A stretch of 64,000 bases of DNA from Sphingosinicella sp. GTDB taxonomy: Bacteria > Pseudomonadota > Alphaproteobacteria > Sphingomonadales > Sphingomonadaceae. Location of the stretch: NCBI GenBank assembly GCA_013816585.1, contig JACDEE010000006.1, positions 62,001 to 126,000 of the forward strand, in the 5' to 3' direction. This document shows positions 1,967 through 16,052 of this stretch, piece after piece. The notes beneath the pieces are model-generated. The model was not told the DNA's origin and searched no databases. It saw only the letters and a list, made by a program, of their open reading frames with translations. The position numbers were made by a program, and so were the translations under genes. The first letter of the stretch is position 1. Each line of letters begins with the position of its first letter.

Positions 1967-2095
1967 TTAGCAGGTTTTGCCTTCGACGCAGTCGGGAACG
2001 GACTGGATATCTTCGCCAACGCCGCGAACGGTGTTGCAGCCGGCCAGAAGCAGGCCGCTGGAAATGGCGATAAGGGTAACAATCTTGCGAACCAT
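1967..2095 (-). CDS. Entericidin A/B-type small lipoprotein
   Basis: A 42-residue protein: a positively charged start (MVRK), a hydrophobic segment, the lipobox LLAGC with the modified cysteine at residue 20, then NTVRGVGEDIQSV and a Cys-containing tail. The GCNTVRGVGxDI signature is that of the entericidin EcnA/EcnB family, small lipoproteins first known as stress-induced antidote/toxin peptides and widespread in proteobacteria. A good ribosome-binding site (AGGAGA) lies 5 bases before the ATG. Upstream on the same strand lie an EcfG-like promoter (2162-2187) and, further away, a perfect EcfG promoter (2344-2368), which suggests control by the general stress response. A strong terminator follows the gene. 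Confidence 0.85.
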   Translation of the reverse strand: MVRKIVTLIAISSGLLLAGCNTVRGVGEDIQSVPDCVEGKTC

Positions 2096-2161: not shown

Positions 2162-2187
2162 AATGCGTCGAGCCGCGCGTTGGTTCC
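2162..2187 (-). promoter_or_regulatory. Possible EcfG-type promoter for the entericidin gene
   Basis: On the minus strand GGAAC is followed after 17 bases by CATT, against the EcfG consensus GGAAC-N16/17-CGTT. The -35 is perfect and the -10 has one mismatch. The predicted start would give an entericidin leader of about 60 bases. Confidence 0.4.
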
Positions 2188-2237: not shown

Positions 2238-2337
2238 AAAAATGTTGAGCCCGGAGTCGCCACCGGGGGGGAGGTTGGCGCGTCCGGGCTCATGTTCTGG
2301 ATAGCGAGAGCGGGGGGGCAAAAGGTCGCTATCCGAA
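2238..2337 (-). ncRNA. Candidate stress-induced small RNA with two C7-loop hairpins
   Basis: Downstream of the EcfG promoter at 2344-2368 the minus strand holds two perfect inverted repeats. Hairpin 1 spans 2299-2334 (GGATAGCGA / TCGCTATCC, 18-base loop containing seven consecutive Cs). Hairpin 2 spans 2247-2291 (GAGCCCGGA / TCCGGGCTC), with a second inner stem CGCC-ACC / GGT-GGCG (one bulge) that presents a loop of UCCCCCCC. Hairpin 2 is followed by a U5 run, as in an intrinsic terminator. The predicted RNA is about 100 nt. Known alphaproteobacterial stress sRNAs such as the CcsR RNAs of Rhodobacter also carry C-rich (CCUCCUCCC) motifs in hairpin loops; similarity to these is by design only, not by sequence. 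It could instead be a structured leader of the entericidin mRNA. Confidence 0.6.
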
Positions 2338-2343
2338 CAGCAT

Positions 2344-2368
2344 AACGAGACAGCACGTCTGCGGTTCC
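2344..2368 (-). promoter_or_regulatory. EcfG-dependent promoter, perfect consensus
   Basis: Minus strand GGAAC (2368-2364), 16 bases, CGTT (2347-2344). This exactly matches the alphaproteobacterial general-stress sigma factor consensus. The transcript would start near 2337, at the foot of the first hairpin of the candidate sRNA. Confidence 0.75.
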
Positions 2369-2697: not shown

Positions 2698-4293
2698 TCA
2701 GCGCTCGCCTTTGTTCACCACCGCCACGTCGAGTGAATAGAGACCCTTTTCCTCGTCGTGCTCGATGGTCGAACGGAGCTGGCGGGAAAGGCCGGTAACG
2801 ATCCGGGTGAAACGATCCGTAAGCATCTCGTCGCAAGGAACTCCGGCCTTGAGGCTGTCCGATTGTAGGCTGAGGCGGGCGTGTCCCGGATTATCGCCGC
2901 TGAGCGAGATTGTCACCGGATGGCCTCCGCAGAACATCGCATATTCGACGATCTCGGTGATTAGGAAGGCCACCGACACGGCCACGTCCTGATTGGCGTA
3001 ATAAGGCTCGATATCCAGCCGGATCGTCATCGACGAGGCGGAAGCGGGCGCCGTCGCGCGCAGGTTCGCGCCCAGTTCGGAAATCAGGGAGCGCATCGCT
3101 ACTCCGCGATTCTCCTCCAGCTCCGCATAATGATTGCGGTGGACCACGGCGAGCGCATCGACGCGGCGCTGGATCGAGGCGTAAGCGGCCGCGACGTCCT
3201 CGTTTTTCGACCCGCGCGAGTGAAGGTTGAGCAGGGACGCGACCACCTGGAGGTTGTTCTTGACCCGATGATGGACTTCGCGGACCAGCTTCTTCTGCCG
3301 TTCCACGGCGGCTTCCAGGTCCGCCTCGTGCCTAGCAACGGTTCGGGCCACCTGGTGGAAGGCCTCGCCGAGCTCACCAATCTCCCGCGCCGGCGTGGCC
3401 GAACGGGGCAGATCGACATTCTGGTCCCCCGGGCGATAGGAGGCGATGGCCCGCTGCATTCGGCCGAGCGGCCGCAACAATAGTCCGTTGACGATGAACC
3501 AGCCGATCACCGCCGAGAATATCCACATCAATACGGGCAGGATCATCATCACGAATTCGGTGGTGCCGATCGGCGTCGCGGCTGCCGCGATTTCCAACAT
3601 CAGCCGGTCGCCCGCCACCGGCGCGCGAGCGGAGATGGTCTGGACGAAAGGCCCGTCCTTATACAGGTTCCGAAGCACCATCCGGCGGTTGCCCTGGGAT
3701 AGAAGGAGGTTGAAGGCGGGACTGGTGCCGGGAATGTAGGTGATCTGGGAAAGGCCCTCGCGCGAAAGTTCGCCTATGCCCTCGACCATGCCCCGGTTGT
3801 CGTAGAGCGCGAAGCGAAGCGCCTCGCCGTCCCGGCTGATCTGAACATTGGTCCGGCCGCCCTTCGAGTCGACCAATTCGGGCGGGGGTACGAATCCAGG
3901 GGTCGCGCAGCGAAGCGTGCCATCGCCGGCGAACAGGGCATAATGGCCGGCGGTCGCCTGCACGCTGGAAAGCCGCTGCAAGGTGGTTTCGCAAATGTCC
4001 GAATCCGCAGGCGTCCGCGCGATGGCAGCGCTGGCGGCGCGGATCGTCAATGCACTGCGGGAAAGCGAAGAATTCAGCCGCTGCGCCTTGATCTCCACGC
4101 GGGTCCGCGTGTCCTCGATCCGACGGCTATTATTTTCCTGCGCGGTCTGCACCGAGGCGAGGATGGCGATGATACCCAGCGGCAGAAGCCCCAGGCTCAG
4201 GATAAGCATCATCTTCAGGCCGGTCGAAAGCCCGACCCATTTTTCGGAGATCCAGCCCCTATCTTCCCGTTCCTGGGTCACATCGCGCCCCAT
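2698..4293 (-). CDS. phyP: PhyP-like HisKA_2 sensor protein, probable PhyR phosphatase
   Basis: A 531-residue membrane protein: transmembrane helix at about 28-48, a periplasmic domain (49-246), a second helix (247-270), a HAMP-like linker (270-322) and a HisKA_2 dimerisation/phosphotransfer helix with EVHHRVKNNLQ (His342). The ATP-binding domain that should follow (430-530) is degenerate: the N-box reads LITEIVEYAM, without the conserved Asn, and no DxGxG motif is visible. In Sphingomonas strain Fr1 the corresponding gene next to nepR, phyP, encodes such a kinase-like protein that acts as a PhyR phosphatase and negative regulator of the general stress response. Position (17 bases after nepR, same strand) and domain decay both support this role here. 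Confidence 0.85.
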   Translation of the reverse strand: MGRDVTQEREDRGWISEKWVGLSTGLKMMLILSLGLLPLGIIAILASVQTAQENNSRRIEDTRTRVEIKAQRLNSSLSRSALTIRAASAAIARTPADSDICETTLQRLSSVQATAGHYALFAGDGTLRCATPGFVPPPELVDSKGGRTNVQISRDGEALRFALYDNRGMVEGIGELSREGLSQITYIPGTSPAFNLLLSQGNRRMVLRNLYKDGPFVQTISARAPVAGDRLMLEIAAAATPIGTTEFVMMILPVLMWIFSAVIGWFIVNGLLLRPLGRMQRAIASYRPGDQNVDLPRSATPAREIGELGEAFHQVARTVARHEADLEAAVERQKKLVREVHHRVKNNLQVVASLLNLHSRGSKNEDVAAAYASIQRRVDALAVVHRNHYAELEENRGVAMRSLISELGANLRATAPASASSMTIRLDIEPYYANQDVAVSVAFLITEIVEYAMFCGGHPVTISLSGDNPGHARLSLQSDSLKAGVPCDEMLTDRFTRIVTGLSRQLRSTIEHDEEKGLYSLDVAVVNKGER

Positions 4294-4310: not shown

Positions 4311-4523
4311 CTATCCGAGCTTGCCGAGCAGATCGAGCATCTCAGGGGGAATGTCTTCATTGACGGTCTGCTGATAGACCATTCGCAAGCTGCTGCCGAC
4401 TTCGGGCGCGGCGCTGCGTTTCCTGGCCGACTTGGTCACTTCCGAAGACTTGGGTTTCTGGTCATGTCCGGATTTACGCCGACGCTCGGCATCCTTTTCG
4501 TCTTGAAAGGCCAAAATTTCCAC
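4311..4523 (-). CDS. nepR: NepR, anti-sigma factor of EcfG
   Basis: A 70-residue protein with a disordered basic N-terminus and the conserved NepR core LRMVYQQTVNEDIPPEML plus DLLGKL at the C-terminus. NepR binds and holds the sigma factor EcfG; under stress phosphorylated PhyR, a sigma-factor mimic, takes NepR away. The start appears to be GTG at 4523 with GAGGGG just upstream. The gene is followed by phyP and lies head-to-head with phyR, the standard layout of the alphaproteobacterial general stress locus. A near-consensus EcfG promoter sits at 4655-4679, which would give feedback control. Confidence 0.92.
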   Translation of the reverse strand: MEILAFQDEKDAERRRKSGHDQKPKSSEVTKSARKRSAAPEVGSSLRMVYQQTVNEDIPPEMLDLLGKLG

Positions 4524-4654
4524 ACCCCTCGCGGTATTGCCGCGCCGCAGCTATTATATACGACCTGCCCCAAAATCCCCGCATGACCGGCGATTTTGGT
4601 GAACAAGCCTGTTATGGCGTGCCAGCCGCATAAATTAGCCGGCGCCGCGATGGA

Positions 4655-4679
4655 AACAAAAAACTCACACGATGGTTCC
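4655..4679 (-). promoter_or_regulatory. Probable EcfG-type promoter of nepR-phyP
   Basis: Minus strand GGAAC (4679-4675), 16 bases, TGTT (4658-4655): one mismatch in the -10 element against CGTT. Read on the plus strand the same segment shows GGAAA-N17-GGTT, a weaker mirror image directed at phyR. Confidence 0.5.
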
Positions 4680-4814
4680 ACACCCACATGAGAAGCGGGC
4701 CGGGCATGTTTTTCCGTGCATTTCGTGGCGGCGGCCTGCTTTCGGCAGGCTTGCAAAGCGCGAGCCGGCCTCTCACAACATCCGCTAAGTCGGAAAACAG
4801 GAGTCGAAACGAAT

Positions 4815-5612
4815 ATGTCGCTTGGTCAGGATCTCGCGCCGCACCTTCCCTTTTTACGCCGCTATGCGCGCGCCCTTACCGGTAGCCAGGGCCACGGTGA
4901 CAATTTCGTCCGGGCGACGCTGGAGGCGATAGTGGCCGCTCCCGACGATTTTCCACGCGACGTGGATCCGCGTCTGGGCCTTTACCGCACTTTCCACGCC
5001 ATCTGGTCATCCGCGAATATCGAAGAAGATCCCGGCGCAAGCAGCGGCTTCGACGATGCGGAGGGTATTGCGCAGGCCCGGCTTGGCCGCATCACTCCGC
5101 TGTCCCGTCAGGCGTTGCTGCTGACCGCCATGGAGGGATTCACGCCCGAGGATACCGGATATCTGATCGAAGCCTCTGCTTCCGAGGTCGACAATCTGGT
5201 GGCCGAGGCCCTCACCGAAATCGAGCGGCAGACCCGCGCCGAAGTCCTGATCATCGAAGACGAGCCGATCATCGCGATGGATATCGAAACGATCGTGCGC
5301 GATCTGGGTCATACGGTGACCGGTGTAGCAGTCACCCGTGACGAGGCGGTCGCCCAGGCGATGGCGCGCCGACCGGGACTGGTGCTGGCCGATATTCAGC
5401 TGGCCGATGATAGTTCCGGTATCGATGCGGTGAAGGACATATTGCAGGAATTTTCGGTTCCGGTCATCTTCATCACGGCCTTTCCGGAACGGCTGCTGAC
5501 CGGCGAAAGGCCGGAGCCTACCTTCCTCATCACCAAGCCGTTCCAACGTTCGACCGTGAAGGCAGCGATCGCCCAGGCCCTGTTCTTCGACAATGCTACG
5601 TTGCCGGCCTGA
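4815..5612 (+). CDS. phyR: PhyR, general stress response regulator (sigma mimic plus receiver)
   Basis: A 265-residue protein with an N-terminal ECF-sigma-like domain (about 1-140) and a C-terminal receiver domain (142-262). The receiver shows the acidic pocket IIEDE (147-151), the phospho-acceptor Asp193 in LADIQL and the conserved Lys241 in TKPF. On phosphorylation the sigma-like part is freed to bind NepR, releasing EcfG. The sigma-like part should lack true promoter-binding ability. I chose the ATG at 4815 because CAGGAG lies about 12 bases upstream and family proteins begin at this point (SLGQDLAPHLPFLRRYAR). It is divergent from nepR. Confidence 0.93.
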   Translation: MSLGQDLAPHLPFLRRYARALTGSQGHGDNFVRATLEAIVAAPDDFPRDVDPRLGLYRTFHAIWSSANIEEDPGASSGFDDAEGIAQARLGRITPLSRQALLLTAMEGFTPEDTGYLIEASASEVDNLVAEALTEIERQTRAEVLIIEDEPIIAMDIETIVRDLGHTVTGVAVTRDEAVAQAMARRPGLVLADIQLADDSSGIDAVKDILQEFSVPVIFITAFPERLLTGERPEPTFLITKPFQRSTVKAAIAQALFFDNATLPA

Positions 5613-5633: not shown

Positions 5634-5658
5634 GGAACCGCGCAGGAATGCGGACGTT
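5634..5658 (+). promoter_or_regulatory. EcfG promoter upstream of the small membrane gene and ecfG
   Basis: GGAAC (5634-5638), 16 bases, CGTT (5655-5658): a perfect EcfG consensus. It implies that ecfG activates its own operon. Confidence 0.75.
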
Positions 5659-5699: not shown

Positions 5700-5837
5700 A
5701 TGGACGAACGCGAACAACATCTTACGACGACGGAGGCGCGTGCGGGAACGACCCCGCATATGACGCGCTACATTCTGCCCATATCGCTTGGGCTGGTTGT
5801 AATAGTGTTCGCGCTTATCTTGTTTGTCTGGCGGTAA
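5700..5837 (+). CDS. Small single-pass membrane protein between phyR and ecfG
   Basis: A 45-residue protein with a polar N-terminus rich in Thr, Glu and Arg (residues 1-23) and one hydrophobic helix (YILPISLGLVVIVFALILFV, 24-43) ending in WR. The ATG is about 35 bases after the predicted transcription start of the EcfG promoter at 5634-5658. It lies 87 bases before ecfG on the same strand, so it is probably the first gene of the ecfG transcript. I know no function for it. An inner-membrane position and stress-controlled expression are inferred from the sequence. The Shine-Dalgarno match (GGGCCGAGG) is modest. Confidence 0.6.
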   Translation: MDEREQHLTTTEARAGTTPHMTRYILPISLGLVVIVFALILFVWR

Positions 5838-5924
5838 ATCACCACCTCGTTGTGGTACAGGGCGCCTCATGCGAGCCCTGCGTTGTGTCTTAAGTCATCA
5901 ACATTTCTAGAGTATCGGGGACTT

Positions 5925-6572
5925 ATGGCGGCCGAACAGCCAGTCGAGGTTGATGGGGACGAAGAGGCAGAACGGTTCGAACCCGTTCCCCTTCCCGATT
6001 CCGAATTCAAGGACCAATTGGCGCAGGTCATTCCGCACCTGCGTGCGTTCGGCCGTTCGCTTTCGGGCAGCCGGGACCTCGCCGACGATCTTGTCCAGGA
6101 AACCTTGCTAAAGGCCTGGGCGGCGCGCAAGCGCTTCCAGGCCGGCACCAACATGCGGGCCTGGACCTTCATCATCCTGCGCAACCTGTTCCTCAGCCAG
6201 ATGCGCCGGGCGCGCTTCAAAGGCGAATGGGATGAATTGACCGCATCCAAATTGCTCGCGGCTCCGGCCAGTCAGGACCGCCACGTCGAATTGGGCGATA
6301 TGCAAAGGGCGTTGATGCATCTGCCTCAGCCGCAGCGCGAAGCCCTGATCCTGGTAGGCGCAGGCGGCTTCGCCTATGAAGAAGCGGCGGAAATCTGCGG
6401 CTGTGCAGTGGGCACAATCAAAAGCCGCGTCGCGCGTGGGCGCGTCGCCCTGGAAAATCTGCTGTCGGAAGGCGATCTTCCGTCGCGCCGAAGTCATGAA
6501 ACCGATCCCAACAGGACCGCGCTTCAGAGCATCATGAACGAGGTGGATGAGTTGAGCCGCGACCGGCATTGA
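5925..6572 (+). CDS. ecfG: EcfG, general stress sigma factor
   Basis: A 215-residue ECF sigma factor of the EcfG (ECF15) group. Region 2 runs from LRAFGRSLSGSRDLADDLVQET to MRAWTFIILRNLFLSQMRR, with the core-binding DLVQETLLKAW signature; region 4 contains LPQPQREALILVGAGGFAYEEAA and the recognition helix GCAVGTIKSRVARGR. It directs RNA polymerase to GGAAC-N16/17-CGTT promoters and is held by NepR in the absence of stress. The ATG at 5925 was chosen because it removes an unsupported upstream extension; GGGGAC lies just before it. With phyR, nepR and phyP nearby the whole core switch is present in this window. Confidence 0.93.
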   Translation: MAAEQPVEVDGDEEAERFEPVPLPDSEFKDQLAQVIPHLRAFGRSLSGSRDLADDLVQETLLKAWAARKRFQAGTNMRAWTFIILRNLFLSQMRRARFKGEWDELTASKLLAAPASQDRHVELGDMQRALMHLPQPQREALILVGAGGFAYEEAAEICGCAVGTIKSRVARGRVALENLLSEGDLPSRRSHETDPNRTALQSIMNEVDELSRDRH

Positions 6573-15116: not shown

Positions 15117-16052
15117 ATGACTGATGTAGTATTTGGTAACGTTGCGTCGCGGGGAAAGTTCCGCAGCCTGCTGAAACCGCGTGATATTTTTATTCATAAC
15201 GGCAAGGCTCTTCGTCGCGTCCGGATCAGCATTCCCCTTCAGCTCTCGGCAGCAGCAGCCGCCATGTCGACGCTTTGCTGGTCGATTTTTGCTACCGCGT
15301 CGCTCGTCACTTCCCAGCCCCCCGCCAATTCCGATCTCGCCCGTATGGAGCAGCAGGTCGAAGCGATGCAGGCTGATGTCGCCGTCATCAAGAACCAGGT
15401 CCAGCAACGTTACGAAACCACTTCGGCCGAATTGCGCAAGCTTGGGATCGACCCCCAACGCGTCCAGGGCGTCGGTGGCCCGTTCGAAGCCGTCGAGCCG
15501 CTCAAGGCCGGCGATGCCAATTTCAAAGCCTTGTTCACCAGCTGGAAAAAACTGGATCAGCTGGAGCAGGGCACGATCGCCATTCCTTCGCTGAAGCCCG
15601 TCAAGAATGCCAGCTTCACCAGTGGTTTCGGCGTTCGTTCCGATCCATTTCAGGGCCGCGCAGCCATGCATGGCGGCATCGATCTGGCCGGTCCACTCGG
15701 CACTCCCATCTACGCCACCGCCGATGGTGTCGTCGGCCGTTCGGCCTGGGCCGGCGGTTACGGTAATCTCGTCGAGCTGGACCATGGCAAAGGTATTCAG
15801 ACCCGTTACGGCCACCTTTCCAGGTCGCTGGTCAGCCCAGGACAGCGCGTCCGGCGCGGCGACCAGATCGCCATGATGGGATCGACCGGTCGTTCCACCG
15901 GCAGCCACCTTCATTATGAAGTGCGGATCGACGGCAAGGCCGTGAACCCGATCCCCTTCCTGCAGTCCAACGAGTATCTCCAGTCGGTTCAGGCCCGTGC
16001 CGCCGCCGTCACACGGGTCGCCCTTGGCGGACCTGCCGGCGGAGCCAAATAA
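15117..16052 (+). CDS. M23-family (LytM-type) cell-wall endopeptidase
   Basis: A 311-residue protein with one N-terminal hydrophobic segment (about 42-66), a short coiled-coil-like region (LARMEQQVEAMQADVAVIKNQ) and a C-terminal M23 domain. The zinc-site motifs are HGGIDLAGPLGTPIYA (HxxxD) and HLHYEVR (HxH), both intact, so the domain should be an active glycyl or D-Ala endopeptidase or an envelope-bound activator in the periplasm. The N-terminus has no cleavable signal, so it is probably anchored to the inner membrane. It stands alone, after the DUF455 remnant and convergent with purC. Confidence 0.88.
   Translation: MTDVVFGNVASRGKFRSLLKPRDIFIHNGKALRRVRISIPLQLSAAAAAMSTLCWSIFATASLVTSQPPANSDLARMEQQVEAMQADVAVIKNQVQQRYETTSAELRKLGIDPQRVQGVGGPFEAVEPLKAGDANFKALFTSWKKLDQLEQGTIAIPSLKPVKNASFTSGFGVRSDPFQGRAAMHGGIDLAGPLGTPIYATADGVVGRSAWAGGYGNLVELDHGKGIQTRYGHLSRSLVSPGQRVRRGDQIAMMGSTGRSTGSHLHYEVRIDGKAVNPIPFLQSNEYLQSVQARAAAVTRVALGGPAGGAK

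Follow-up and report, generated by a model that had tools for sequence, protein, structure and literature searches.

A conserved, predicted small RNA gene with an EcfG promoter and two C-run loops near the phyR locus of sphingomonads

Introduction

GsrN of Caulobacter crescentus is a small RNA with a general-stress promoter and a 5' loop of six Cs, and its gene usually lies near the stress locus (PMC5869019). The loop pairs with the G-rich leader of katG and activates katG, and BLASTn homologues are described as limited to Caulobacteraceae, with no apparent gsrN-like gene in the out-group Erythrobacter litoralis (PMC5869019). CcsR comprises four RNAs in one operon under an RpoHI/RpoHII promoter and has an associated binding protein, CcaF1 (PMC10253847). 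The C-rich loops of RNAs from Rhizobiales and Rhodobacter are presumed to act by blocking ribosome sites (PMC3927594).

The main text of the GsrN paper contains no word beginning 'sphingo' (PMC5869019). For Sphingopyxis granuli and Sphingomonas melonis, the EcfG regulon has been described in two papers whose main texts contain neither 'sRNA' nor 'small RNA'; their gene-based counts would miss such a transcript. In the open-licence literature, as far as its texts were available, we found no description of the RNA presented here and no small RNA of the sphingomonad general stress response.

Here we analyse a 64,000-nucleotide stretch of Sphingosinicella sp. DNA (contig JACDEE010000006.1, hereafter the window), in which a sequence-only reading had proposed a stress sRNA beside phyR and before an entericidin gene. 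Promoter conservation, covariation and synteny all support this proposal, including its putative stress-response role. The locus almost certainly holds a conserved RNA gene with an EcfG promoter, and we estimate a probability of about 0.8 that it encodes an EcfG-dependent sRNA of ~100 nt with its own terminator, whose C loops would act in trans on G-rich mRNA sites. Genome comparison shows that promoter, stems and C runs are conserved and that the unit does not depend on its neighbours; transcription, EcfG dependence, pairing and targets are inferred.

A promoter, two hairpins and a terminator

The features of the locus are collected in Table 1. The predicted EcfG promoter on the minus strand is present as proposed, and no gene is recognised on that strand at the RNA itself; the next one below is entericidin-like. 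The promoter has the form reported for Sphingopyxis granuli, GGAAC-N16-CGTT, where TGTT, CATT and GGTT occur as other -10 boxes (PMC7083833). The motif alone is weak evidence: the window has three matches to its pattern where 0.92 would be expected, and three are also reached by 10 of 100 shuffles. The strong evidence is its conservation. All 75 copies found at named phyR loci (see below) are preceded by an EcfG promoter, with a spacing of 16 (61 copies) or 17 (14) and a -10 box of CGTT (60), GGTT (8) or TGTT (7). A strict pattern recovers it at 29 of 30 loci from the order, L114 being the sole failure. Of 23 diverse copies, 22 have GGAAC and one GAAAC, and a further set is positive in 20 of 20. 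The copies read at a distance from phyR also retain the promoter, one of them as GAAAC.

Table 1. Features at and around the predicted RNA, in window coordinates
Feature	Positions	Strand	Basis
EcfG (general stress sigma factor) promoter, GGAAC-N16-CGTT = GGAACCGCAGACGTGCTGTCTCGTT	2344..2368	-	motif match and conservation
Predicted small RNA, ~101 nt	2238..2338	-	ends set from promoter and model; fold, R1 score, covariation
Hairpin 1, CCCCCCC loop (C run 2312-2318)	2294..2338	-	fold and unpaired probabilities
Hairpin 2, CCUCCCCCCC loop (C run 2265-2271), doubling as terminator stem	2246..2292	-	fold
U5 tract 3' of hairpin 2 (intrinsic terminator tail)	2238..2242	-	sequence
Second, separate EcfG-type promoter before the entericidin gene, GGAAC-N17-CATT	2162..2187	-	motif match
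Entericidin-like lipoprotein gene, downstream	1967..2095	-	Pfam PF08085, E 5.1e-4, 20.4 bits, below cut-off 23.3
HWE/HisKA_2 histidine kinase gene in the phyT (formerly phyP) place	2698..4293	-	domain hit; named by position and domain (after PMC6599016)
nepR, anti-sigma factor gene; ribosome-site GGGG 4525-4528	4311..4523	-	Pfam NepR; G tract
phyR	4794..5612	+	domain search
ecfG	5850..6572	+	frame as listed; true start may be further in

The RNA is predicted to fold into two hairpins. The segment 2345-2220 reaches -51.9 kcal/mol, compared with -31.1 (sd 3.4) in shuffles (z -6.2; 0 of 200 as good). Calling both stems perfect, as the earlier reading had done, was slightly too strong, since each contains a bulge: hairpin 1 has 9 bp (GGAUAGCGA/UCGCUAUCC) and four further pairs past a bulge, and hairpin 2 has an outer stem of 10 bp and a bulged inner stem of seven pairs. 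The loops, which contain GCCCCCCCGC (hairpin 1) and CCUCCCCCCC (hairpin 2), each carry the expected seven Cs. These are predicted to be unpaired at probabilities of 0.98-1.00, with the exception of the first C of loop 1 (0.19). The expected U run follows hairpin 2, and U-rich tails are visible by eye in relatives.

Across compared relatives the stems vary and the C runs remain. Among the 75 named copies the run in loop 1 is seven long in 67 (range 6-9), and its 3' flank, GCCCCCCCGCUCUC, is highly conserved (at least 61 of 75). The run in loop 2 varies from 5 to 14. Because of this variation, which disrupts any frame, a conserved frame through loop 2 is excluded, and we reject a peptide-coding role. 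By sequence, then, the unit has the marks of an sRNA gene, namely its own promoter, its own terminator and no coding frame. An Rfam search over the whole window returned nothing at or above thresholds.

Covariation supports both hairpins. In a 43-sequence alignment, 91.0% of cells are paired, and both partners have changed in 25 of 27 pairs. Covariation scores 0.517, compared with 0.190 in shuffles, and on each of five measures all 500 shuffles fall short. Fitting the alignment to the model tilts the test in the model's favour, and the sequences share ancestry, yet the margin is still large. Sliding the partners by 1-3 columns lowers pairing to 33-40%. Hairpin 2 has weak innermost pairs: in the last of them, 21 of 39 cells are unpaired.

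Occurrence and genomic position

By DNA search the element was detected in 28 of the 60 genomes covered, with 25 of 26 in the window's genus (its own genome counted), 3 of 10 in other genera of the family, and 0 of 24 in other families of the order. The single miss within the genus is a genome that is 87% complete. In two loci from the family (L027 and L028), promoter, hairpins and C loops are kept despite different stem sequences (z -6.3 and -8.6).

We built a covariance model (R1) from 28 sequences, the window element and its relatives; the window element accordingly scores 116 bits against a model that includes it. R1 finds a single copy per genome in 117 of 396 genomes of the order, spanning 19 of 84 genera, under strict filters that lose weak matches. 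In 84 of these 117 genomes the RNA lies 1.8-2.5 kb upstream of phyR, divergent in all 84; in the other 33 it lies elsewhere or on a different contig from phyR. At named phyR loci R1 finds it in 75 of 80, always opposite to phyR, a count from which 16 weak opposite-strand rows are excluded. A4, with its four opposite-strand matches, was not used for counts, and the E-value cut of A6 excludes them. Of the five misses, L029, L033 and L056 are too short upstream; L037 and L098 have room for the element, and R1 finds none there. Stems and C runs are both retained in the relatives recovered by covariance search, and loss of either was not seen.

A second model (R2), built from 43 more diverse sequences, matches 17 of 39 family genomes, taken one per genus from 39 genera. 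Twelve of these were read with their flanks: eight have GGAAC and an NGTT box and one (G810) has GGAAC and CATT; a clean promoter is absent in three (G028, G813 and the second place in G260). In a class-wide sample of 385 genomes R2 gives 11 matches, two of them within the family; six of the nine outside it were checked, and none has an EcfG promoter. Within the family, 27 R2 matches from genomes lacking an R1 hit were checked, and 26 show no promoter. The remaining one, L187, has the promoter and an entericidin gene. Promoter and C run are also present at two contig ends (G131 and G412) and at one place in G245.

R2 additionally reveals two genomes with a second promoter-bearing copy of the RNA (G804, with L353 and L354, and G030, with L356); duplication therefore occurs in some genera. 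In genus g37, several contigs terminate within or just past the RNA (L193/L239 in G131, L189/L241 in G412, and G245:C56), suggesting assembly breaks caused by the hairpins or C runs, which would hide copies.

Comparison with described RNAs

By analogy of promoter, loop and place, GsrN is the nearest functional precedent, ahead of CcsR. Like GsrN as described, the present RNA is ~100 nt long with a general-stress-sigma promoter (here by sequence match), has an exposed C-rich 5' loop (here C7 in hairpin 1, with six of seven Cs unpaired at 0.98-1.00), and typically sits near ecfG-nepR-phyR (here 84 of 117 copies). GsrN targets are G-rich, a likeness shared with the candidate sites discussed below. 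CcsR, which the sequence-only reading had named as an example of C-rich loops, shares the general design, but its operon is driven by RpoHI/RpoHII (PMC10253847). In contrast to GsrN, both loops of the present RNA hold a C run, and the second of these runs lies within the hairpin that serves as terminator. A further difference concerns katG, the target proven for GsrN, for which this genome gives no match.

From its loops, we take ar14 (RF02344) to group with the CCUCCUCCC-loop 'cuckoo' RNAs SmelA075/SmelA099, RS0680a and CcsR. The present RNA resembles these, as far as they are described, in its modular hairpins, C-rich anti-Shine-Dalgarno-like loops, variable stems and stress link, and hairpins 2 and 3 of ar14 align with hairpins 1 and 2 of its relatives. 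Covariance scores nevertheless argue against membership in ar14, which we reject: against a cut-off of 58.8 bits the window scores 12.4, and three of six relatives scanned score 35.7, 28.0 and 23.2. Unlike CcsR, with its four RNAs per operon and RpoHI/RpoHII control, the element has two hairpins, one copy per R1 genome and an EcfG promoter. The CCUCCUCCC motif of the cuckoo/CcsR loops is absent from both window loops; it is seen in full in the relative L187. Nor do we find several copies per genome as in cuckoo RNAs, there being one match in each of the 117 R1 genomes under strict filters. Scr3202 (RF02833), a Streptomyces sRNA, likewise has two hairpins with C-run loops; the window scores 24.3 bits and L175 (145-241, +) 34.5, both below the cut-off of 52. 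This likeness to a distant phylum is probably convergent.

In promoter and position the present RNA resembles GsrN, and in its two-loop layout it resembles the Rhizobiales/Rhodobacter RNAs. By analogy, it probably works like GsrN and ar14-type RNAs.

Proposed function and candidate targets

We propose that free EcfG, released in general stress, would drive synthesis of the ~100-nt RNA, and that hairpin 2 with its U5 tract would end the transcript. Each hairpin would then present a single-stranded C run able to pair in trans with G-rich ribosome sites or mRNA leaders. Trans action by C-loop pairing is likely; it could lower target translation in stress, or raise it, as GsrN does for katG.

Within the locus, the ribosome site of nepR is the conspicuous one. 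At 56 of 72 loci a GGGGG is placed 4-18 nt ahead of an in-frame start, and at 69 of 72 a GGGG; the window's own nepR has GGGG only. At the ribosome sites of other locus genes, GGGGG occurs before entericidin in 0 of 56, phyT in 0 of 79, phyR in 6 of 80, ecfG in 8 of 80 and a 45-aa small frame in 14 of 79. The background is 19 of 629 (3.0%) ORFs of at least 150 aa in the same loci; within the window, 2 of 42 such ORFs have it. Predicted loop pairing is also strongest with nepR among six genes tested (-17.8 and -16.7 kcal/mol). Shuffled nepR leaders pair nearly as well (-16.0 and -14.4 kcal/mol), so this pairing is mostly explained by composition. A general role of nepR is weakened by the window's own shorter tract and by the low predicted accessibility of the G runs in nepR leaders, which average only 36% unpaired.

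Genomes in which the RNA is missing or has moved offer a comparison, read by eye. Among 14 genomes without an R1 hit, ten have a nepR-like frame, and one of these ten (L330) has a G run of at least five near the start; such genomes, like those with a relocated RNA, also differ by ancestry. The nepR G tract is irregular where the RNA is relocated from phyR: of five leaders from such genomes, L341 has a G run of at least five and L345 has GGGG. In the GsrN study, a nepR-sigT segment is listed among the co-purified RNAs, and the predicted site there is not G-rich (PMC5869019).

The GGGGG counts suggest the nepR ribosome site as the most promising target, although we hold it less likely than not; such pairing would make the RNA a feedback element on the anti-sigma factor within the stress response. 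More tentatively, it might form a post-transcriptional feedback arm in which EcfG makes the RNA and the C loops cover the G-tract ribosome site of nepR-phyT, limiting both the anti-sigma factor and the PhyT phosphotransferase and so prolonging or sharpening the response. If true, an RNA acting on the NepR brake would be a new layer on a switch that has been described, in the papers available to us, at the protein level. An RNA with a fixed EcfG promoter, wide in genus and family, supplies a concrete candidate target and makes the generality of GsrN-like RNAs in alphaproteobacterial stress responses directly testable.

Other candidates fared differently. We reject katG, suggested by analogy with GsrN, as it has no match in this genome. 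Among katG leaders from 20 genomes of the genus (two fragments of a 21st excluded), none carries five consecutive Gs ahead of its start and one has a run within the frame, with starts taken from the longest frame and some probably wrong; predicted pairing reaches -22.4 kcal/mol in one of the 20. Entericidin is likewise rejected as a target, its ribosome site having GGGG in 0 of 56 loci. Genome-wide, GGGGGG before ATG occurs at 146 places in the window's own genome compared with 38 for the reversed pattern; 30 such loci were fetched and 11 open frames of at least 50 aa printed, none of which we claim as a target. GGGGGAGG before ATG has places in all 26 genomes of the genus, each total above that of the reversed pattern. 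G-rich sites before ATG are therefore common, and many mRNAs could be targets.

Independence from neighbouring genes and alternative explanations

All 75 named loci that carry the RNA also give an HWE kinase hit. Downstream of the RNA, an entericidin gene can be recognised in 56 of these 75, in 28 of 29 order loci, in 19 of 25 genus loci (one truncated) and in 16 of 20 divergent representatives. This same-strand neighbour, which persists at several loci unlinked from phyR, raises the alternative that the element is a structured 5' leader of the entericidin mRNA, exerting cis control by attenuation or by pairing of a loop with the ribosome site. In the g37 loci read (L140, L159-L168), the start codon falls ~20-40 nt past the RNA, with no space for a second promoter. 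Against a general leader role, 53 of 56 entericidin genes have a GGAAC-N16/17-CATT promoter to themselves. In addition, 19 of 75 named and 4 of 20 divergent loci keep the RNA and its promoter although no entericidin gene is recognised there, with a motif search that may overlook divergent genes. The element is thus not simply an entericidin leader. Predicted pairing of the loops with the 56 entericidin ribosome sites also speaks against cis control, being weaker than shuffled for loop 1 (-8.5 vs -10.3) and slightly stronger for loop 2 (-9.2 vs -8.1), and those sites lack GGGG throughout. We consider the leader explanation unlikely. Promoter, stems and C runs are kept across the compared genomes independently of neighbour genes, and on this comparison the RNA is a unit of its own, though it may also serve as an entericidin leader in g37.

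The RNA could instead act mainly as a sponge or decoy, its C loops binding an RNA-binding protein or other sRNAs rather than mRNAs. The high conservation of the loop 1 flank would fit such a role, as would the binding protein of the CcsR RNAs, which are of similar general design (PMC10253847). GsrN, the closest functional precedent, acts however through base pairing (PMC5869019), and the neighbourhood of the RNA, looked over informally, showed no gene for an RNA-binding partner; we regard the sponge as improbable. It is very improbable that the hairpins are a mere terminator pair between phyT and the entericidin gene, with a coincidental promoter. Hairpin 2 and U5 do resemble an intrinsic terminator, and 11 of 12 weak model hits read elsewhere lack an EcfG promoter, many of them resembling C-loop terminators. 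Yet the promoter holds a fixed place in every named copy, hairpin 1 is dispensable for termination and is still conserved with covariation, and the unit survives relocation. A trans-acting, EcfG-dependent sRNA remains our preferred reading.

Further observations at the locus and elsewhere

The 45-aa frame (window 5700-5837, +) lies between phyR and ecfG and has one hydrophobic segment and no Pfam match; tblastn finds a relative at 74 of the 75 named RNA-bearing loci. We take it as a probable small membrane protein belonging to the stress locus that has gone unannotated. An EcfG-type site (5634-5658) sits just ahead of it, and another, GGAAC-N16-TGTT, precedes nepR (4655-4679, -). All 80 named loci have a site of this last pattern on the nepR strand, no more than ~420 bases upstream of phyR. 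The third consensus EcfG site of the window (15138-15162, -) falls inside a longer opposite-strand frame (15117-16052, +) and is probably due to chance.

Of 30 loci fetched for an EcfG site combined with a C run, eight were read by eye and, besides L224 and L228, appear to be mRNA leaders or coding sequence. L224 (G191) and L228 (G144), from genomes with no clear model match, show an EcfG-type promoter followed by hairpins with C-run loops, and are possibly very distant or independent C-loop stress RNAs.
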